35,384 nucleotides of DNA from Bacteroidia bacterium (GTDB lineage: Bacteria; Bacteroidota; Bacteroidia; Bacteroidales; Prolixibacteraceae), in the NCBI GenBank assembly GCA_026391655.1, contig JAPLDR010000103.1, positions 1 through 35,384 of the forward strand, in the 5' to 3' direction. Below, piece after piece: positions 1-16,489 of the stretch. The position numbers and the translations under genes were made by a program. Under the pieces are notes generated by a model, which saw nothing but the letters and a program-made list of their open reading frames with translations, was not told where the DNA came from and did not search any database. The stretch's first letter is position 1. Every line of letters starts with the position of its first letter.

Positions 1-53
1 GATTTATTATTCAACCTGAATTAATTATACGTAAAACATAAACAAATAAAACA

Positions 54-719
54 ATGGAAGAGATTCTTGAAAAACTGGCGTACTGTGTTGAATTCGGCAA
101 AATTAACCTGGCTTCTCCTTATCCGCCCGATATGCGAGGGCAAGAAGGTGCCGATGAACTGACTAAAAGAGCTCTTGAAATGGGTGTTGCTCCGACGGAA
201 GTCCTGAATAAAGGTCTTGTTATCGGAATGGGAAAAGTTGGGGTTAAGTTTCGTGAGAACAAAGTGTTTGTTCCTCAGGTACTGATGAGTGCCAAAGCGA
301 TGAGTTTCGGTATGGTGCATCTGAAACCGTTTTTTAATGACGGTTCTGTTGTTCGTAAAGGGAAAATCATTATCGGAACTGTTGAAGGTGATCTTCACGA
401 TATCGGTAAGAATTTGGTGGCAATGATGGTTGAAGGAAGTGGTTGGGAAGTCATTGACCTGGGAACAGATGTAAAAGCAGAGAAGTTTGTAGAGGCAATA
501 AAAGCAAATCCGGGTGCGGTGGTTTGTTTATCAGCATTACTTACAACTACCATGGTGAATATGGAGAAGATTGGTAAAGCGGTGAAAGAGGCAGTTCCTG
601 GTACTGTCGTTGCAATTGGCGGAGCACCGGTAACGAAGGATTTTAGCAATAAAATTGGAATGGATATTTATTCGGCTGATCCACAAGGACTTATTGATCT
701 TCTCGGTAAACTGAATTAA
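54..719 (+). CDS. Corrinoid-binding methyltransferase subunit (MtaC/MtbC-like)
   Basis: This 221-residue protein should carry the methyl group on a cobalamin cofactor and shuttle it between methyltransferases in the cytoplasm. Residues 1 to about 100 match the helical cap (B12-binding_2), and about 104-221 the Rossmann-like B12-binding domain. The lower cobalt ligand motif DxHxxG is at 113-118 (D113, H115, G118), followed by the SxL motif (S160, L162) and a GG pair at 189-190. The cap carries an extra SPYPPDMRGQEG segment at 21-32 compared with what I recall of methanol-type MtaC. It is the first complete gene of a six-gene co-directional run and ends 11 bases before the next start. ATG 54 follows an A-rich leader typical of Bacteroidota. 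The family call is secure; the substrate system is not identifiable. Confidence 0.92.
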   Translation: MEEILEKLAYCVEFGKINLASPYPPDMRGQEGADELTKRALEMGVAPTEVLNKGLVIGMGKVGVKFRENKVFVPQVLMSAKAMSFGMVHLKPFFNDGSVVRKGKIIIGTVEGDLHDIGKNLVAMMVEGSGWEVIDLGTDVKAEKFVEAIKANPGAVVCLSALLTTTMVNMEKIGKAVKEAVPGTVVAIGGAPVTKDFSNKIGMDIYSADPQGLIDLLGKLN

Positions 720-730
720 ATAAGTATTCC

Positions 731-1729
731 ATGACCAAAAAAGAGATCTTTCAGAATATGTGCAACGGAGTTTTTTCACCGGATAGAACAATATTCCGGC
801 CAATTCTGATGCACTTTATCGCCCGTTATGCAGGTGGAAATTATGCCGGATTTGCTTCTGATTACCGGTTTCTGGTCGACGCAAATCTTAAGGCACTCTA
901 CGACTTTGATATCGATATGGTTGGATTAATATCTGATCCATACCGCGAAACAAGTGCTTTTGGAGCCAGGATTGAGTATATTCCTGAAGGTGTACCTCGT
1001 TGTCTGGATCTTGTGATCAAAAATGATGAGGATATTAGGAACCTTGGAAGACCCGATGTTTATAAATGTGAAAGAACACTTGACAGAATTCTTGGAGCTG
1101 AGTTGTTGTCGAAGCAGACAAATGGTCAGGTACCCATCATTGGCTGGATTGAAGGTCCTATGGCAGAAGCTTGCGATCTTGCAGGTATTGAGCAATTCAT
1201 GATGATGCTGATGATGGATCCCGATACAGCGAATCTCCTTTTGGATAAATGTGTTCTTACGGCTAAAGATTTTGCCAAAGCGCAGATTGAATCTGGTTGC
1301 GACATCATCGGAATGGGGGATGCCATCTGTTCTCAAATTGATCCATGTACTTACGAAACGTTTGTAAAAGAACGGCATCGCGACATTATAAGTTTTATTC
1401 ATGAGCTTGCCAGCAAGGTGAAAATGCACATTTGCGGTGATATTACCCATTTGCTTCCACTGATGAATGATCTCGGAATTGATATTTTGGATATAGACTG
1501 GCAGATCGATCCCCAACATGCCTTTGAAGTGATGGGGCCGGATGTCATTCGGTGCGGAAATATTGACCCTCGCGTTGTAATGGATAAAACACCAGATGAA
1601 ATTTTTACGACTTGTAAGCTATTATGCGATAATGAGAAAGGTCGCAAATTTATTTTGTCAGCAGGCTGCGAAATTATTGTAATAACACCTCATGAAAATT
1701 TGATGGCCATGCGCAAGGCCAGTTTTTAA
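731..1729 (+). CDS. UroD-family corrinoid methyltransferase (MtaA/CmuA-like)
   Basis: A 332-residue TIM-barrel protein of the uroporphyrinogen decarboxylase superfamily, in the methyltransferase branch rather than heme synthesis. The zinc site of MtaA-type enzymes (HxC plus a distant Cys) is intact: H233 and C235 in the KMHICGD segment, and C313 in SAGCE. These methyltransferases move a methyl group between a methyl-corrinoid protein and a thiol, or from a methylated donor to the corrinoid. The corrinoid protein directly upstream (gap 11 bases) is the obvious partner. True HemE is unlikely, given the zinc-site residues and an operon that contains no heme genes. Whether it loads or unloads the corrinoid cannot be told from sequence. 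Confidence 0.88.
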   Translation: MTKKEIFQNMCNGVFSPDRTIFRPILMHFIARYAGGNYAGFASDYRFLVDANLKALYDFDIDMVGLISDPYRETSAFGARIEYIPEGVPRCLDLVIKNDEDIRNLGRPDVYKCERTLDRILGAELLSKQTNGQVPIIGWIEGPMAEACDLAGIEQFMMMLMMDPDTANLLLDKCVLTAKDFAKAQIESGCDIIGMGDAICSQIDPCTYETFVKERHRDIISFIHELASKVKMHICGDITHLLPLMNDLGIDILDIDWQIDPQHAFEVMGPDVIRCGNIDPRVVMDKTPDEIFTTCKLLCDNEKGRKFILSAGCEIIVITPHENLMAMRKASF

Positions 1730-1750
1730 TTGAAATTTGAAATTATTATT

Positions 1751-3370
1751 ATGACCGGAAAAGAGAGGATTCAAAAGACTTTTAAACTTGAGCCAACCGA
1801 TTCTATCCCATGGGTACCTTTTGTTGGTGTTCACGGAGCCAGCCTGATAGGGGCTAACGCCACTGAATTTCTCCATTCAGCTGACTATATTGTGGATGGG
1901 CTTACCAAAGCTGTCGAATTATATCAACCCGATGGCATTCCTGTTTTATTTGATTTACAGCTTGAAGCAGAACTTCTTGGATGTCAGCTAAACTGGGCTG
2001 ATGAGAATCCACCGGCAGTTATTTCTCATCCGCTATTAGAGGGGCAATCTATTGAGGGATTGATTGTTCCGGAGAAACATCAGGGGCGCATGCCTGTTGT
2101 TCTCGATGCGACGCGACGCTTACGAGCCAAATATCCCGATCTGGCACTTTACGGACTGATTGCAGGACCGTTTACGCTGGCACTTCACCTGTTGGGAACC
2201 GATATATTTATGAAACTTTTCGAAGAGCCGGAGTATGTTTCAAAACTGTTTATCTTTTGCGAAAAAGTTGCAAAAAGAATGGCTGATTATTATATCGAAG
2301 CCGGATGTGATGTCATTGCCGTTGTTGATCCAATGACAAGTCAGATTGATCCGGTTACTTTCGAAACCTTTATTTCTCCTCCAATGACTGAAATCTTCCG
2401 GCACATCAGGGAGAAAGGGGTATTGAGTTCATTTTTCGTTTGTGGTCATGCTCAGCAGAATATTGAGGTAATGTGTGGATGTAAACCCGATAATATCAGT
2501 ATTGACGAAAATATACCGCTCGATTATGTAAAAGATATTGCCCTGAGACACAACATAAGTTTCGGTGGAAATCTTCAGTTGACTGTTGTTTTGCTGATGG
2601 GAGCTCCTGAAGATGCTGCATTTAACGCACTCGACTGTATTGAACTAGGCGGTGACCGAGGGTTTATTCTGGCTCCAGGCTGTGATCTTCCGATGGCCAC
2701 GCCACCTGAAAATCTGATTGCGGTAGCCAAACTGGTTAAAGATCCTTATGAGCAACAGATTCTTAAGGCGATGACACGCAAAAGCGATAGCCTTAGGTTA
2801 TTGAATATGAAAGATTATGGCCAAAGTGATAAAGTAATCGTCGATATTATTACCCTTGATTCTGAATCGTGTGCCCCATGTCAATATATGGTTGAAGCAG
2901 TGAAGAAGATAGCGCCTCATTTTGATGGGATTGTTGAATGGCGCGAACATGCAATCAAACAAATGGCTGGAGTGACTTTTATGGCTTCTCTCATGGTTAA
3001 GAATATACCCACGATCTGTATCGATGGGAAAATCTCATTTGTAAGTCAGATTCCACCTAAAAATGAACTGATTGCTGCTATCCAAAAAAGGATTAACGAA
3101 AAAATAAAACTTAAAATTCAGGCAAAAAAAGGAGAGTTTATCGTTTTCTGCAAGGATGAAGAGGAAATCAAAATCATGAAATCCAGGATCAATACAACCT
3201 TTTTACAGACAGGTAAGAGTATAGAGGTTAAGTATGTCACTGATCCGGAAAAGCTTACGAAATATGGTATTCTACTAACTCCAACAGTAATTCTGAAAAA
3301 ATACACCATTAAATCTCAGGGAAAAGTTCCATCAGTTGATGTGATTACCGAATGGCTGAAAGAGGTATAA
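1751..3370 (+). CDS. UroD-family methyltransferase fused to two thioredoxin-like domains
   Basis: A 539-residue fusion. Residues about 1-340 are a second UroD/MtaA-like barrel; about 363-450 form a thioredoxin-like domain with a CAPC redox motif (C374, C377) and a probable cis-Pro at P420; about 460-539 look like another thioredoxin fold, with a single Cys (C467) in place of CxxC and a TP turn at 510-511. The barrel's zinc site is altered relative to the preceding gene: the HxC position reads F229-V-C231-G-H233, while the distal Cys (C311, APGCD) is kept. The frame is open back to a TTG at 1730 directly after the previous stop, but ATG 1751 starts the canonical MTGKERI opening, so I chose that. 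It may be a second methyltransferase with a built-in dithiol reductant; that role is inferred. Confidence 0.87.
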   Translation: MTGKERIQKTFKLEPTDSIPWVPFVGVHGASLIGANATEFLHSADYIVDGLTKAVELYQPDGIPVLFDLQLEAELLGCQLNWADENPPAVISHPLLEGQSIEGLIVPEKHQGRMPVVLDATRRLRAKYPDLALYGLIAGPFTLALHLLGTDIFMKLFEEPEYVSKLFIFCEKVAKRMADYYIEAGCDVIAVVDPMTSQIDPVTFETFISPPMTEIFRHIREKGVLSSFFVCGHAQQNIEVMCGCKPDNISIDENIPLDYVKDIALRHNISFGGNLQLTVVLLMGAPEDAAFNALDCIELGGDRGFILAPGCDLPMATPPENLIAVAKLVKDPYEQQILKAMTRKSDSLRLLNMKDYGQSDKVIVDIITLDSESCAPCQYMVEAVKKIAPHFDGIVEWREHAIKQMAGVTFMASLMVKNIPTICIDGKISFVSQIPPKNELIAAIQKRINEKIKLKIQAKKGEFIVFCKDEEEIKIMKSRINTTFLQTGKSIEVKYVTDPEKLTKYGILLTPTVILKKYTIKSQGKVPSVDVITEWLKEV

Positions 3371-3390
3371 CGATTTAAATTTATGGCAAA

Positions 3391-4272
3391 ATGAAGAAAA
3401 TTACAGATCGTGTTAAGAAAGGGAAAATTCTGGTTTCGGATGGGGCCTGGGGAACATTTTTGCATGCCAAAGGATTAAAACCGGGACAATGCCCTGAACT
3501 CTGGAATATTGAACATCCAGACGAAGTTTTTGATATAGCCAAAAGCTACATTGATGCCGGTGCTGATATGGTTGAAACCAATAGTTTTGGTGGTAGTAGT
3601 TTTAAATTAGTGCATTATGGATTATCAGACCGTGCTTTGGAGTTGAACCAGGCAGCTGCGGCCATTTCAAGAAAAGCTGCCGGCGACAAATTTGTATTGG
3701 GTTCAGTCGGACCAACCGGGAAAATCCTCATGATGGGTGAAGTTACCCCTGAGGAGATTTACGAATCTTTTAAAGAACAGGTTATTGCATTGGAAAAAGG
3801 TGGTGCTGATGCCATTATTATTGAGACTATGACAGACCTTGATGAAGCACGTTTAGCTGTGAGGGCTGCCAAAGAAAACACCTCAATTGAAGTGATTTGT
3901 ACCATGACTTTCGAAAAGACACTCATGGGCGAATACCGCTCGATGATGGGGGTTTCTCCAACTGAAATGATGCAGGAACTTGTACCTGAAGGGGTCGATA
4001 TCATTGGTGCAAATTGCGGAAATGGTATTGAAGGGATGATTGAAATTGTGAAGGAGATCCGGGCATGTAATACAGAGATTCCTGTTCTCGTTCATGCCAA
4101 CGCAGGCATGCCTGTATATCATGAAGGGACTACGCTATTTCCTGAATCACCTGAACAAACAGCGAGTTTTGTCAGGGCAATTATCGATGCCGGGGTAAAT
4201 ATTATTGGTGGTTGCTGTGGTACAACTCCCGAGCATATCCGTCAGATTGCAGGGGTTGTACGTGAATTGTAA
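3391..4272 (+). CDS. Homocysteine S-methyltransferase domain protein (MetH N-terminal/BHMT-like)
   Basis: A 293-residue protein covering only the homocysteine-binding barrel of MetH/BHMT enzymes. The opening SDGAWGTFL matches the family's DGAxGT start, and the three zinc-ligand cysteines are present: C209 in GANCGNG, and C275 and C276 in GGCCGTTPEH. It should activate homocysteine as a zinc thiolate and accept a methyl group, giving methionine. Full MetH continues into pterin, cobalamin and activation domains; here those are absent, replaced by separate corrinoid and activation-like genes in the same operon. The most economical partner is therefore the corrinoid protein at the start of the operon. 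ATG 3391 is chosen; an ATG eight bases earlier encodes only MAK and then stops. Confidence 0.92.
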   Translation: MKKITDRVKKGKILVSDGAWGTFLHAKGLKPGQCPELWNIEHPDEVFDIAKSYIDAGADMVETNSFGGSSFKLVHYGLSDRALELNQAAAAISRKAAGDKFVLGSVGPTGKILMMGEVTPEEIYESFKEQVIALEKGGADAIIIETMTDLDEARLAVRAAKENTSIEVICTMTFEKTLMGEYRSMMGVSPTEMMQELVPEGVDIIGANCGNGIEGMIEIVKEIRACNTEIPVLVHANAGMPVYHEGTTLFPESPEQTASFVRAIIDAGVNIIGGCCGTTPEHIRQIAGVVREL

Positions 4273-4277
4273 AAAAA

Positions 4278-5195
4278 ATGCTGAAAAAAGTCCCTTTTTA
4301 TCTGGTCACCGGTTTTTTGGGAAGCGGAAAAACAACCCTGATAAAACGATTCATCGAATGCTATGCTGATTCTAAAAAGATTGTTGTTATTCAGAACGAA
4401 TATGCTGAGGTAAACATAGATAGCTGTGAACTGAAACAAACCGGCAAATCTTTTGAGCTGCTCGAAATGAATAACGGCTCTGTATTTTGTGTTTGTCTCT
4501 TAGGCAGTTTTGTCCATTCACTATCTGATTTTATCCATGAGCATCAACCCGATCTTATTATTCTGGAGGCATCCGGACTTTCAGATCCAATCAGTATCAG
4601 CCAGATTATTTCGGCACCTGCCTTGCGTAATTTGATCTGGTTAGCGCATACTTATACAGTTGTTGATGCGCTTAATTTTCAGAAAACAATTGAAAGGGTG
4701 GGGCGTAATACTCACCAGATTCGGATTGCAGATACTATTGTGTTGAATAAGTGCGATTTGTTGGCTGAATCACTTCGTGAGATACGAAGTAAATTGTTGA
4801 TGATTAATCCTTTTGCAAAGATTGTAGAAACCTCCTTTGGCTGTATTGAGTTTGTTCCGGGATCTGTTTTTCATTTACCGGTAGCAGTAATAGGAACTGA
4901 ACTATATGAAAGCTCAGGAAGACCCGATGTTGGTTCGGCTGTGATCAAACTTATGAAGCCGGTTTCTCCTGATAATTTAGATTTATTTATTCAAAAATAT
5001 AGTTTAATTACTTATCGTATAAAGGGTTATGTGAGTACTACCAAAGGCTCGGTAGCCGTTCAGACAAGTTTCGGACAAATCGAAATAAAGTCGGTTAATC
5101 ATAATTCTTATCATACTGAGATAGTAATTATCGGACCAGAAATTGATCAGAAAGTTTTACAACTAGAATTCGAAAATTTATGCAACCAGAACTGA
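4278..5195 (+). CDS. CobW/P47K-family GTP-binding protein with altered metal motif
   Basis: A 305-residue G3E-class GTPase. The Walker A motif GFLGSGKTT lies at residues 12-20, and NKCD in the middle of the protein is the guanine-specificity motif. COG0523/CobW proteins normally carry a CxCC metal motif; here the matching segment, NGSVFCVCLLGSF, reads C-V-C-L, so the last Cys is missing. CobW relatives deliver metals or help cobalamin maturation; inside a corrinoid methyltransferase operon, a role in cofactor insertion or repair of the corrinoid protein is plausible but inferred. The start lies 5 bases after the previous stop, and the 3' end overlaps the next gene by 16 bases, indicating translational coupling. 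Confidence 0.88.
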   Translation: MLKKVPFYLVTGFLGSGKTTLIKRFIECYADSKKIVVIQNEYAEVNIDSCELKQTGKSFELLEMNNGSVFCVCLLGSFVHSLSDFIHEHQPDLIILEASGLSDPISISQIISAPALRNLIWLAHTYTVVDALNFQKTIERVGRNTHQIRIADTIVLNKCDLLAESLREIRSKLLMINPFAKIVETSFGCIEFVPGSVFHLPVAVIGTELYESSGRPDVGSAVIKLMKPVSPDNLDLFIQKYSLITYRIKGYVSTTKGSVAVQTSFGQIEIKSVNHNSYHTEIVIIGPEIDQKVLQLEFENLCNQN

Positions 5196-5887
5196 AAAAC
5201 TTTGCGTACTCATTTAATGAGCTGGATATCAATGTGGAACTCATTGAAGAGGCAATGGGTTATGGCAGAGGACAATCACCTAAACCTTTTCCTGATATGA
5301 TCACTTATGCACTTGACCAATGCGATCTGTTATGTGATATACAGGGAAGTTTATTGGTTTCCAATAACTTTTCTTTAGATAAAACCGGGAGTATAATTGT
5401 CAATGGAGTCACGTTTTATGTTGGTAAAAAGATTGCTCTGCAACTGAAAAATGCAGAAGGAGGCGCACTTTTTATTTGCACTGCCGGAGCCGGAATCAGC
5501 GAAAAAAGCAAAGAACTAATGGCCGCAGGTGATCTGATTGAAGGATATATCCTTGATGTGATTGGTTCAGTGACCGTGGAAGCTGCTATCGATAAAATTC
5601 AGGAAAGCTTTGAAAATGAATTGATAAACAAGGGAATAAAAATAGCTAACCGATTCAGCCCCGGTTATTGCGGGTGGGCTTTACAGGAACAGAAACATTT
5701 TTTCGCTTTGTTTCCCAACAATCATTGTGGAATAAAACTGTCCGATTCCTGTCTGATGGATCCCATTAAATCGGTCAGCGGCGTTATTGGTTTTGGAACA
5801 AATGTCAAAAAGATGGCTTACGAATGTCAGATGTGTGAACTTGAAACTTGCATTTATCGAAAGATAAGGTTAGCTAAAGGCAAGTAG
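5180..5887 (+). CDS. Stand-alone methionine synthase activation-domain-like protein
   Basis: A 235-residue protein resembling the C-terminal activation (AdoMet-binding) domain of MetH. The signature RFSPGYCGW at 158-166 corresponds to the RxxPGY AdoMet-binding loop, followed by SCLMDPIKSVSGVIG at 190-204. In MetH this domain re-methylates the inactive cob(II)alamin using AdoMet and an electron donor. A Cys cluster close to the C-terminus (C216, C219, C224) suggests metal or Fe-S binding. As the last gene of the operon it probably reactivates the corrinoid protein encoded first. ATG 5180 lies inside the preceding gene (16-base overlap). The gene ends 6 bases from a convergent membrane-protein gene, with no clear terminator between. 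Confidence 0.82.
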   Translation: MQPELKNFAYSFNELDINVELIEEAMGYGRGQSPKPFPDMITYALDQCDLLCDIQGSLLVSNNFSLDKTGSIIVNGVTFYVGKKIALQLKNAEGGALFICTAGAGISEKSKELMAAGDLIEGYILDVIGSVTVEAAIDKIQESFENELINKGIKIANRFSPGYCGWALQEQKHFFALFPNNHCGIKLSDSCLMDPIKSVSGVIGFGTNVKKMAYECQMCELETCIYRKIRLAKGK

Positions 5888-6666: not shown

Positions 6667-6975
6667 CTATACAAGCCGGGCAATATCATCTGTGTTTCCT
6701 ATTCTTTCCGCCGGAAGTTGAAGGTGATCTGCTTGAGAGAAAGCTTTCTGATTTGCCTCACTGCGTTTCCTTTCGGCAGACAGATCGATCAAACCCGGAG
6801 AGATAGAATTTACCCGCACTTCGGAGCCTAAACTTACATCAATCACCTTTTGCCACTCCGCAAGTGTAAGAGCAGAGAGCAGTTTATTACATATGATTGC
6901 TGTATTGTTTACCAGAACATCAATTCTGCCAAATTTAACACCAATTTTGGATTTATGCCTAAAAATTATTTTCAT
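6667..6975 (-). pseudogene. Remnant of a short-chain dehydrogenase/reductase
   Basis: The 102-codon frame joins two separated pieces of a classical SDR. The first is FGRIDVLVNNTAI followed by a TLAEWQKVIDVSL stretch, which matches the NNAG and downstream helix region. It runs straight into VRVNSISPGLI, which in intact SDRs lies after the catalytic YxxxK. The roughly 50-70 residues holding the catalytic Ser, Tyr and Lys are gone, the N-terminal TGxxxGIG cofactor loop is missing, and the C-terminus is cut after DDIARLV. It cannot be an active oxidoreductase. It sits alone in about 930 bases otherwise free of genes. Confidence 0.7.
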
Positions 6976-10076: not shown

Positions 10077-11810
10077 TTAATAAGATATTCTGGAGGAAAA
10101 ATTTATTCCTGCCGTGTTGAATTTTCCGTTATCAAAACCGGCATAGACCCCAATATTTGCCGATAGAAGTACTTCAAGAAGGGTGTAGCCAACTTCGACA
10201 TAATTGTGGGTTACAGGCGATGTATAATAGCTGCACCAGACCATTTCGCGCCAAAGCGTATTGCTAAGAATTGGAAGATGCTTGAGGGCTAAATAGGGAG
10301 CCTTCACAGACAAATAGGCTTTGATGAATTTGTCAGAGGTGCTCAAGGTGTAATAACCGGGTAGATAGAAGGAGTGACGATACTCTTTCAAAAGAATTGG
10401 GCTTGTTTGTGTTTGTGCGTGTGAAAAGTCTGAAAAGTGAATTCGGTTATTATTTGGGAACCATCCGCTGTGTAATTCAGTGGCGATGCTCGAAGTCGGA
10501 CTCCACTCTTTGATGTATTCAAGCCCGGCTCCTAAATAGTCGAAGTCAGCTGCACTCGCGAAAAGCTGTTTAATTCCTTTTTTATATTCAAAATAAAAAG
10601 TGGGATATTTTGAATTTGACATTGTTTTAACGCCATTACTTATTCTGTAGAAATACTTCGGTGTATACACTATTTTTAATCCTATAACTGTATTAATTTG
10701 ATCTTCAATTGATTGTAAAGACAATTCTTCGTTTGAAGGAAGATTTGGTTTATAATTGTCCCCTTTTTTAACAAATGAAAAGTTGGTGGAGTTTTGCAAT
10801 TGGCTGATATTGTTCCACTTAAAGCTAGCAATTAATACCAGCCCATTCGCGATATCAATATTGTTAGAGAGATTTATAAACCGATTCTCATAGTATCGGG
10901 CAAAATTCTCTTTATAGAAGAGTGAAGCAACCGAATTTATAAAAGGGTGTACCGCATTAGTCGGTGAATTGAAATCGACTGTATTTTTACCTCCATAAAG
11001 TTCAAAGGAACCTCTTTTTAGCGGAGCGTAGGAATAATTTATAATTCCTGTAGCAAGAATAGCCTCCCGATTGATTGCATAGGCAAGATAAGGGGTGATT
11101 GTAAGCGATTTACCAGGTTTATAATTTTTGGTAAAAGTAATGCTTTGTGATACTTTCCATCCGTCAACAGCGTTGAAACTGATCCGCTTTGTTGAAATCA
11201 GACCGTCATATTTTAAGCTCCAGGTTGAGTCTTTTAGCGCGCGTCTGATTCCGAAAAATACAGGATTTAAGACCCCATAGTTTCGTTTATGATTAACAAA
11301 TGCAGAGGAATCAGAAGCAAATTTTTTGTTGACAGACAGGAGCGAATCACGTTGCCGGAAACTGTGTATTTCATCAGTCGAAAGAGGTATCGGACGCATG
11401 AGTGACCAATAGCTCGTATCGCGACTGTTTGCTCCTTTCTCAATAATTACCTTAACTTCATCTTTAATTTCAAGCGATTTCAACGAATCTGGTTTGCGTG
11501 CAATATCCTGCTTTGCCATTAAATCCGACAATTTGTTCATGTCTCTGTTCGTGAGTTTTTCCTTTTCCAGCAAATGTGTAATTTTTGAATCATTTTTTTT
11601 AACTAATTTATTTTCAGCTAATTTTGTCGTTACAGAAGATTTATTAGTTGCTTTATTGCTGAATTCTGGTGCAGTTGGTTGAATTCCAATCATAGCCAGA
11701 ACCTGATCGTTTACTTTTATTTTATTGTATTTGATTGATGCTCCGAATTTAGCACTCCCTTTAACTCCCATCATTCCGCCGTTAAAGGTGTAATCGTGTC
11801 CAACCGGCAA
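10077..11810 (-). pseudogene. DUF5686 protein, C-terminal part downstream of an in-frame amber codon
   Basis: The frame continues without shift from the upstream half after a TAG at 11811-11813. It holds the bulk of a DUF5686 outer-membrane protein: LPVGHDYTFNGG, then a Lys-rich linker, then a long series of amphipathic strands ending in an aromatic C-terminal residue (FSSRISY), as expected of a beta-barrel. The first codon after the stop is TTG; the first ATG is at 11774. Neither start would supply a signal peptide, so independent expression of a functional barrel is unlikely. The best reading is the 3' part of one broken, or read-through, gene of 885 codons. Confidence 0.72.
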
Positions 11811-11813
11811 CTA
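11811..11813 (-). other. In-frame TAG interrupting the DUF5686 gene
   Basis: On the minus strand the codons read GAT GAA GTA CGT CCA GGA GTC TAG TTG CCG GTT GGA CAC. Both sides are in the same frame, and protein similarity to DUF5686 continues across the stop. TAG is used as a normal stop elsewhere in the window (ends of the genes at 5887 and 17846), which argues against reassignment. Confidence 0.85.
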
Positions 11814-12734
11814 GACTCCTGGACGTACTTCATCAAAAACCAGCCGGAAGCTTACTGTACCGAATGGCGTATCAAAACTTAAATCGGCTCTGTGGAGACA
11901 CCATAAATCTTCAATGATATAGATATAACCTTCGAAAAGCTGCTTACTTTTCCTTTTCGGAGTTACTTTAATTTTATTGATGGTGTATTTCCCATCCTGA
12001 TTGAAGCCTTCATACCTAAAATTATAATATGTAAAGGCATTTTTACATAATGGAGTGAAAAGGATATCGATATTATCCTGATAAAGACTTGCACCGAGAT
12101 ATTCGTCTACCGAGAAATCAACAACTTTTGGGAATGTGGAATTTACTGAACGGATTTGCTGCTCATATTTATCGGGAGCAATAAAATTAATAAGGCTAAC
12201 TGTTTCGTTTACTAGTACATCGCCAGATTTTACATCAATTTCTTTTCTTCGCAACTGATTACGGATCAAGGCCGGGACTTTTTCGAATTTTATGGTTCCA
12301 CGGATGTAAACGTCTGCCGAATAGGAACTGATCTGATTCAAATGTACATACGACAGCCCGATAACTTTTCGCATAATGGGATATGCAGGATCTTCACCGG
12401 TATCTTTAATGTCGATCTGACTAATCTGCATGATTTGCTCCTCAAGGATTACTTCTATTTCGTTTACCTTTTTGGTTAAAGTAATCGTTTCAGTTTTAGG
12501 TATATAACCCAAACTTCTAAAGTTAGCAGTATAAACTCCTGGCGGTAAATCCAATTCAAATTTCCCATCATCATTTGTAGTAGTTCCCAGCGATATTTCT
12601 TTAATGAAAACAGTTGCATAAGGAATCGGTGTACTATCCTTACTAATAATAATTCCTTTCAAATTATGGGAATAGGAGACTAACCGACCAGATAATAGTA
12701 ATATACACAGGAACGTCAATTTAGGAAAAGTCAT
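11811..12734 (-). pseudogene. DUF5686/carboxypeptidase-regulatory-like protein, N-terminal part
   Basis: This 307-residue frame starts with a signal peptide (about 1-22), then a CarboxypepD_reg-like beta-sandwich (about 25-110, with PIPYATVFIKE, TTTNDDGKFELDLPPG and YTANFRSLGY). The first part of a DUF5686 domain follows and stops at DEVRPGV. Relatives I recall read through this point as P-G-V/I-W-x-P-V, so the TAG most simply replaces a TGG Trp codon. Such proteins are outer-membrane barrels of unknown function, widespread in Bacteroidota. On its own this fragment would be secreted but lack the barrel. It starts the unit that runs into prmA. Confidence 0.75.
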
Positions 12735-15610: not shown

Positions 15611-16489
15611 ATGTTATTTGCCCAAAACGATAAAAGCTTTTATAAGAAGAAGAGTACCCTTAATCTGAGCGGGAATCTGATCAATCTGAGCTCACCTGTG
15701 GTCATGGGTATATTAAATGTAACCCCTGATTCTTTCTTCGATGGAGGTGTCTATACCAATGAAAGTACAATTGTAAAACGTGCAGCCCAAATTCTTGAAG
15801 AGGGTGGGCAGTTTATCGATATTGGGGCCATGTCGACACGTCCCGGAGCAAAGGAGATATCATTACAGGAAGAACTTGATCGTCTCTTACCTGCTGTGAG
15901 GGCAGTGAAACACGAATTCCCTGAGGCTTGTCTTTCGGTCGATACATATCGTAGCGAAGTGATTGAAAGAGTATACAATGAAATTGGTTCCTTCATTGTT
16001 AATGATATTTCTGGCGGAACTTTTGATGACGGAATATTTGAAACAGTTGCTCATTTACATTTGCCGTATATTCTGATGCATACGAAAGGAAGGAGCGATT
16101 CGATGCAGAAGAGTCCGGTATATGAGGATGTTGTAAAAGAGATCATCTTGTTTTTTGCTGCTCAGGTGCAAAAGTTGAAGCTTTTGGGAGTTTGCGATAT
16201 CATTATTGATCCGGGATTTGGATTTGGTAAAACAACAGATCATAATTTTGAATTGCTGAACCGTTTGGATGCGTTTAAGCTTTTCGAGTTGCCAGTATTA
16301 GTAGGAATTTCGCGTAAAGCAATGATATGGAGAACACTGGATGTTACTCCTGACGAAAGTCTGAATGGGACAACGGTTTTTAATACATTAGCCATATCCG
16401 GGGGTGCAAATATTTTGAGGGTACACGATGTCATGGAGGCTGTTGAGACAGTAAAATTAGTAGGTAAAATTAAATATATTTCTAAATGA
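15611..16489 (+). CDS. folP: Dihydropteroate synthase
   Basis: A 292-residue enzyme joining 6-hydroxymethyl-dihydropterin diphosphate to p-aminobenzoate in folate synthesis. The family signatures are present: VVMGILNVTPDSFFDGG, then IDIGAMSTRPGA, SVDTYRSEV, VNDISGG, DPGFGFGKT and GISRKAM. The frame is open back to a TTG at 15584, but the ATG at 15611 already precedes a normal-length N-terminus. Its stop overlaps the start of cdaA by four bases (ATGA), a pairing common in Bacteroidota. It is a true DHPS, not the missing pterin-binding part of the corrinoid operon 10 kb away. Confidence 0.95.
   Translation: MLFAQNDKSFYKKKSTLNLSGNLINLSSPVVMGILNVTPDSFFDGGVYTNESTIVKRAAQILEEGGQFIDIGAMSTRPGAKEISLQEELDRLLPAVRAVKHEFPEACLSVDTYRSEVIERVYNEIGSFIVNDISGGTFDDGIFETVAHLHLPYILMHTKGRSDSMQKSPVYEDVVKEIILFFAAQVQKLKLLGVCDIIIDPGFGFGKTTDHNFELLNRLDAFKLFELPVLVGISRKAMIWRTLDVTPDESLNGTTVFNTLAISGGANILRVHDVMEAVETVKLVGKIKYISK

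Follow-up and report, generated by a model that had tools for sequence, protein, structure and literature searches.

The window analysed here is the whole of contig C136 of genome G000 (35,384 bases), one of the 149 contigs in a 96% complete assembly of a Bacteroidia bacterium from the family Prolixibacteraceae. Its left end holds a six-gene operon composed of a corrinoid (B12-binding) protein, two methyltransferases of the UroD family, a homocysteine methyltransferase, a CobW-type GTPase and a protein resembling the activation domain of the methionine synthase MetH. Base 1 of the window is the edge of the assembly, leaving the start of the operon out of view. The features are the following:

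1..53, no strand: contig edge before the first gene, with the promoter and any upstream gene out of view, as the window spans the entire contig
54..719, + strand: CP, a free-standing corrinoid protein of 221 aa with a B12 cap and a B12-binding domain containing DLHDIG (PF02310, E 7e-25; PF02607, E 3e-16)
731..1729, + strand: UroD1, an MtaA-like methyltransferase of the UroD family with His233-Cys235-Cys313 (PF01208, E 9e-56)
1751..3370, + strand: UroD2T, a UroD barrel plus two thioredoxin-like domains, 539 aa, with FFVCG replacing HxC, PGC and CAPC (PF01208 and PF13192, Thioredoxin_3)
3391..4272, + strand: HMT, a free-standing homocysteine S-methyltransferase with zinc cysteines 209, 275 and 276 (PF02574, E 6e-72)
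4278..5195, + strand: CobW, a COG0523/CobW-type GTPase with FCxC replacing CxCC (PF02492, E 2e-36; PF07683, CobW_C)
5180..5887, + strand: Act, a MetH-activation-like protein of 235 aa with RFSPGY and the additional cysteines C164, C216, C219 and C224 (PF02965, Met_synt_B12, 34.9 bits)

The original prediction, made from the letters of this DNA, described six tightly packed genes on the same strand at 54-5887, and the open reading frames bear this out. Adjacent genes are never more than 21 bases apart (11, 21, 20, 5 and -16 bases in order, the 21 being counted from the ATG at 1751 that orthologs of UroD2T use, whereas its longest open reading frame begins at TTG 1730). The 3' end of the operon abuts a convergent HlyIII gene, and an Rfam search of the window for RNA elements returned only a tRNA at its far end, the promoter being hidden by the contig edge. 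The families proposed (corrinoid protein, UroD, homocysteine methyltransferase, CobW and activation-like) were recovered by Pfam, and the motifs named, that is, DLHDIG in CP, the three zinc cysteines in HMT and RFSPGY in Act, are all in place. The two UroD-type methyltransferases are indeed both present, but that count probably falls short, as the upstream UroD0 described below would make three, differing in their metal sites; likewise, the second was rightly placed in the UroD family while its fusion to two thioredoxin-like domains with CAPC was overlooked.

At the protein level, the best NCBIfam matches of CP are of the MtgC/MtbC type (MtgC/pyl_corrinoid), ahead of MetH (176.9 versus 113.8 bits, both partial and below cut-off), and its DxHxxG motif is conserved in 53 of 53 aligned relatives. 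The closest PDB entry to HMT is 1q7m, a 5-methyltetrahydrofolate S-homocysteine methyltransferase (E 5e-53), and cysteines C209, C275 and C276 are found in the window protein and in all 43 relatives aligned with it. UroD1 best matches 4ay7, a methylcobalamin:coenzyme M methyltransferase, and its His-Cys-Cys triad is invariant (8/8 aligned rows); both UroD1 and UroD2T fall under the mtaA_cmuA cut-off. The AlphaFold2 model of UroD2T (pLDDT 87.9) also finds its best PDB fold in 4ay7, the MtaA of M. mazei, with a TM score over the target of 0.91 and 26% identity in the Foldseek alignment. Of its two C-terminal thioredoxin-like domains, the first contains CAPC. FFVCG, PGC and CxPC are kept in 79 of 79 aligned relatives (80 loci minus L210, whose split frame was removed by the length filter), and the metal site reads Phe-Cys-Cys, with Phe at the zinc-His position in every one of them. 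To our knowledge, there is no precedent for Phe in such a site. If UroD2T has lost zinc, its function need not have gone with it, since CdmB, a UroD-fold chloromethane methyltransferase, functions without zinc (PMC13222342).

The GTPase motifs of CobW are conserved. CxCC is the defining metal motif of COG0523/CobW; here it is F-C-x-C in 65 of 65 aligned relatives, mostly followed by Leu or Thr, and CxCC is present in the MtaB-linked CobW proteins of loci L261 and L263. Act exceeds the 25-bit cut-off of its Pfam model, and its AlphaFold2 model (pLDDT 89.6) has as best fold the activation domain of T. maritima MetH (TM0269, E 3e-12), the cysteine-rich tail (CxxCx4C region) being modelled at low confidence. 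RxSPG together with C164, C216, C219 and C224 is kept in 18 of 18 aligned relatives; across a broader alignment of 17 rows C216, C219 and C224 never vary and C164 is nearly invariant. These four added cysteines possibly form an iron-sulfur or other metal site.

The operon had been presented as a methionine synthase taken apart. This holds insofar as the corrinoid system is modular and includes a homocysteine module: three of the four module types are shared with MetH, here as separate genes and with the pterin module absent from the operon. It does not hold for the methionine synthase of the cell, because the check for metH that had been proposed revealed a full-length MetH in a 1225-aa open frame on contig C55. 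The operon is therefore not the sole methionine synthase, and a housekeeping split MetH is ruled out. The claimed absence of a methyltetrahydrofolate-binding module is confirmed, none being found in the operon, free in the genome or among the identified upstream genes of relatives. A search of the assembly with PF00809 returned only MetH and FolP, the latter at window 15704-16426, and no free pterin-binding methyltransferase. Within 20 kb no folate methylase was seen, only FolP in the window, the upstream side lying beyond the contig edge. A pterin methyltransferase directly upstream had been named as evidence that would speak against the prediction; in relatives whose upstream genes were identified, these are UroD0, GH120-like, FKBP, Gfo/Idh/MocA or regulator genes, with no pterin gene among them. 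With pterin-binding domains confined to FolP and MetH, folate is probably not the methyl donor.

Conservation of the gene neighbourhood, another of the checks suggested, is clear. All six genes lie together in five other genomes (L038, the same as L150; L040, the same as L151; L161; L181, with a short UroD1 frame of 251 aa; and L205), the copy in G008, of the same genus, matching L150 in gene order, so that the set is linked in relatives rather than dispersed. Act homologs were detected in 29 of the 61 genomes searched, own genome counted (E up to 0.001, a few being weak or partial). Locus L046 has the full set minus UroD1; L041 has CP-UroD1-HMT-Act, with UroD2T and CobW jointly absent; L042-L045 have UroD1-HMT-Act; L048 has CP-UroD2T-HMT-CobW-Act; L050 (on both strands) and L052 have CP, UroD2T, CobW and Act without HMT; L060 and L062 have HMT-CP-Act; and Act stands without the other five genes in several loci, such as L049, L051, L053, L054, L056, L057 and L059. 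The operon looks like two modules, UroD1-HMT-Act and UroD2T-CobW, arranged around one CP. In two relatives from the order (L063 and L064) a MetH-like protein of 775-821 aa, with BLAST matches to HMT and CP, adjoins a distant Act homolog encoded separately, which may represent a MetH with a detached activation protein.

UroD2T reaches well beyond this lineage. An alignment scan of species genomes yielded 449 confirmed relatives, and the best 80 of these, at about 55% identity or more, come by record title from Bacteroidota, Planctomycetota, Calditrichota, KSB1, Sumerlaeota, SAR324 and others. Long, strong matches were found in the own genome and one other of a 395-genome phylum sample, and in 16 of 61 nearer relatives. 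Considering the 54 UroD2T loci with at least 1.5 kb of sequence before and at least 2.5 kb after, neighbours within 6 kb were CobW in 51, CP in 40, HMT in 31, Act in 15, UroD0 in 6 and UroD1 in 5, and every one of the 31 loci with HMT also has CP nearby. Among the Bacteroidota loci of this set, the commonest arrangement is CP-UroD2T-HMT-CobW without UroD1; CP-UroD2T-HMT-CobW is also present in Mariniphaga anaerophila (L159). Over all 80 loci, a gene of the RACo cluster lies within 6 kb in 4 (Pfam confirmed RACo in the one checked, L176), and clusters of AraC-type regulators and of GntP permeases are close to UroD2T in 22 and 9, respectively (Pfam-checked in L157 and L159). In two planctomycetotal loci, L221 and L225, UroD2T-CobW is followed by genes resembling an Rrf2-type regulator, a cupin and a hybrid-cluster/hydroxylamine reductase, as judged by eye in L225 and assigned through shared clusters in L221.

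The gene preceding the operon, which had been singled out for inspection, cannot be read in the window owing to the contig edge, but in relatives it can. A third UroD protein, UroD0, is encoded upstream of UroD1 on the same strand, at up to 3.4 kb, in 8 of 10 distinct UroD1 loci, the other two being L040 and L161, whose contig begins 1.7 kb before. The two genes overlap by four bases in L044, and the cyclobacteriaceal loci L181 and L205 have UroD0 plus all six genes. In the own genome a UroD0 gene is truncated by the end of contig C76 (4,133 bases) and shares 79% identity with its L044 counterpart across 288 residues; C76 likely adjoins C136, and the operon probably has three UroD proteins instead of two. 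Sequence comparison of UroD0 with solved structures gave no match at E 0.01. Its metal-site residues are His-Cys-His in 6 of 6 rows, and among 25 UroD-family paralogs of the genus H-x-C occurs in 23, with His in the third position in 19 and Cys in 1. The S-methyltransferases of this superfamily use His-Cys-Cys, one or both cysteines being replaced in the O-methyltransferases (PMC10418091); on this basis UroD1 looks like the S-type and the UroD0-like proteins do not. Among genomes of the genus, including G015, a single genome holds up to 25 UroD0-like matches, several of them adjoining glycoside hydrolases, and a large demethylase family is possible.

Related corrinoid loci of the same genus provide a further point of reference. 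Eight loci with paralogous CPs were fetched, of which seven (L261, L262, L263, L264, L266, L267 and L268) have, in order, CP, a gene of 458-475 aa and CobW, the eighth (L265) being CP-UroD2T. Pfam identifies the middle gene as MtaB in both loci tested (L261 and L266), RACo following in L261, and these loci likely represent a methanol corrinoid methyltransferase operon in Bacteroidota. In a tree of 66 rows that covers CPs and no MetH domains, the seven CPs group in a single clade (100/100) that does not include the window CP. The latter falls within a set of 32 UroD2T-linked CPs, and the tree does not establish a single clade for the UroD2T-linked CPs taken together. Genomes G009, G011, G013 and G014 have UroD1-HMT-Act without a local CP and a paralog-type CP elsewhere, which would fit one CP carrier common to several methyltransferases.

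Taken to the level of function, the operon seems moderately likely to encode a modular corrinoid methyl-transfer pathway with homocysteine as the acceptor and without a folate step, and the gene set probably takes a methyl group from an outside compound via the B12 protein to make methionine. In such a pathway, a UroD protein would transfer the methyl group of the donor to Co(I)-CP to give methyl-CP, from which HMT, with homocysteine bound to its zinc, would form methionine. Methyl transfer from methylcobalamin to homocysteine is downhill, which argues for this direction. Act, with its S-adenosylmethionine-binding fold, would repair Co(II) using S-adenosylmethionine and an electron source, a re-reduction role that RACo perhaps plays in some relatives, and CobW would load a metal, most likely zinc, chiefly onto its constant partner UroD2T. 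The three UroD proteins are most readily seen as alternative donor-side ports; as the sole UroD in the common CP-UroD2T-HMT-CobW loci, UroD2T should serve the donor side unless an unlinked UroD0 does so.

Regarding the donor, the neighbours of UroD0-like paralogs include, by Pfam, GH38 (6-7), GH92 (2), GH31 (2), GH59 (2), alpha-L-fucosidase (3), sugar transporters (3), RhaT (2) and D-lyxose isomerase (2). Fewer sugar families are listed for the control regions, which come from the same genus: SusD (3), GH43 (2), fucosidase (1) and rhamnosidase (1). These tallies cover the 25 commonest of 82 paralog-neighbour and of 123 control families, in a random draw of 75 of 100 and 75 of 139 proteins that excluded those of at least 1100 aa; the control regions were placed at round coordinates on contigs from earlier matches, some of which also hold a distant UroD/CP locus. 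Because UroD0-like paralogs are mostly His-Cys-His and lie among mannosidase, fucosidase and sugar-transport genes, a carbohydrate methyl ether is the leading, as yet unproven, candidate donor of UroD0. It is rather doubtful that UroD2T and CobW constitute a new class of corrinoid methyltransferase, with the invariant Phe and with the CAPC dithiol taking part in transfer, which together with a sugar-demethylating His-Cys-His UroD0 would feed a folate-free route from sugar ethers to methionine in Bacteroidota.

Several points weigh against the proposed pathway and its donor. Sugar genes are common in the lineage, SusD, GH43, fucosidase and rhamnosidase being found in the controls too, and several of the UroD0-paralog loci are orthologous, so the sugar-gene enrichment is not a clean test. 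The pathway is known from sequence and models, the methyl donor stands at candidate level, and with a MetH of its own the cell would seem to have no need of a second methionine synthase. UroD2T, with Phe in place of the zinc His, may differ in its catalytic role, and in 14 of the 54 loci both CP and HMT are missing within 6 kb of it. All 14 of these genomes have a PF02607 B12-cap domain somewhere, which in 11 occupies a frame of its own (209-269 aa, above 65 bits), leaving three without a clear, strong CP-sized B12-cap protein elsewhere. Finally, the His-Cys-Cys of UroD1, the S/Se type (PMC10418091), agrees less well with a sugar ether than with sulfur in the donor or acceptor.

This last point leads to a different account, in which the substrate demethylated by the UroD proteins is a thioether or methyl selenide, as proposed for type 1 mlp clusters, and HMT recycles the methyl group to methionine. 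Apart from the invariant UroD1 triad, assigned to S/Se-methyltransferases in the same source (PMC10418091), it draws on a resemblance of the UroD2T dithiol domain to the HUIPC thioredoxin (seleno)protein model, which at 43.1 bits is below the 105-bit cut-off, and on the presence of SelD in the own genome. The latter gene, at G000:C40:46387-47302, is split over two frames and is a single frame in most other members of the genus. SelD above cut-off was found in 11 of 16 genomes with UroD2T and 25 of 45 without, five UroD2T genomes having none; SelD and UroD2T thus show no association, which speaks against a purely selenium role. Moreover, UroD0, the usual companion of UroD1, is not of the S-type, and the neighbours covered by the scan, with many others outside it, included no recognisable gene for sulfur salvage or selenium. 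We regard methyl-sulfur or methyl-selenium salvage as unlikely.

A similar, low likelihood is given to UroD2T-CobW having a separate function, for instance in metal or thiol chemistry, and merely sharing the operon with a corrinoid pathway made of UroD0-UroD1-CP-HMT-Act. The pair travels across phyla, also where neither CP nor HMT is nearby, is jointly lost from the otherwise similar operon of L041, and UroD2T lacks the zinc His; however, CP accompanies UroD2T in 40 of 54 loci, the commonest Bacteroidota arrangement joins the pair to CP and HMT without UroD1, and the barrel fold is closest to MtaA. Very unlikely, in turn, is a folate-linked split methionine synthase serving as a back-up of MetH, with CP charged from methyl-tetrahydrofolate by MetH or by an unlinked pterin methyltransferase. 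Such a dispersed pterin module has a precedent in Phaeobacter inhibens, where it is encoded away from the other two (PMC5764234), but the 96% complete assembly contains no free pterin-binding methyltransferase, and such a system would leave two or three UroD genes unexplained.

Compared with known systems, the folate-free pathway to homocysteine favoured here is made mostly of elements already described: separate HMT and corrinoid protein (PMC5764234, PMC12478193), multiple MtaA-like proteins with a corrinoid protein (PMC10418091) and the CobW link (PMC2770081). MtgBCDE of Ruegeria pomeroyi couples glycine betaine demethylation to methionine synthesis, and shares with the present operon a free-standing corrinoid protein and homocysteine module, a donor-side methyltransferase and methionine as product; MtgB is a pfam06253 protein and MtgD a pterin module (PMC12478193), whereas the six genes here include neither and bring UroD proteins, a UroD-thioredoxin fusion, CobW and Act together in a single operon. 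Pfam found no pfam06253 among the six proteins, with UroD instead, a result confined to the operon, as no genome-wide search was made. The split methionine synthase of P. inhibens likewise has separate HMT and corrinoid proteins and separate reactivation factors, but a pterin-binding gene is present, DUF4445/RamA-like and DUF1638 proteins are credited with the reactivation, and the split enzyme is the methionine synthase of the cell (PMC5764234), whereas the genome studied here retains MetH. Type 1 mlp clusters are defined by at least two MtaA-like proteins (>25% identity to known SCMT) plus a corrinoid protein, and they too have no folate methylase within 20 kb; a Ram/RACE activase is part of them, and all their Mlps except several Mlp1 have His-Cys-Cys (PMC10418091). 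The operon adds HMT, CobW and Act, with Phe-Cys-Cys in UroD2T, and no Ram/RACE activase (RACo) is found among its six genes, its upstream side being cut by the contig end and no genome-wide RACo search having been made. COG0523 subfamily 13 has been reported beside corrinoid methyltransferases such as MtaABC (PMC2770081), and here also a CobW-type GTPase adjoins them, but with FCxC instead of CxCC and with UroD2T instead of MtaB as partner. In the open full-text literature searched, no paper was recognised as describing the gene set, the UroD-thioredoxin fusion with CobW or the four-cysteine Act, and no function was found for that fusion with CobW.

Elsewhere in the window, a 102-aa remnant of a short-chain dehydrogenase lies at 6667-6975 on the minus strand, where the middle and C-terminal parts of the profile abut; two relatives have 250 and 276 aa in its place, and it looks like a decayed gene. 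At 10077-12734, also on the minus strand, two open reading frames of 577 and 307 aa correspond to a single gene of 887-897 aa in relatives.

If the proposed pathway is true, these bacteria would possess a methionine route drawing its methyl groups from an outside compound instead of the folate pool. The analysis also highlights a UroD-thioredoxin fusion that, together with CobW, is conserved across several phyla, and draws attention to a large set of UroD-family proteins, encoded next to genes for glycan degradation, which may be corrinoid enzymes that demethylate methylated sugars.

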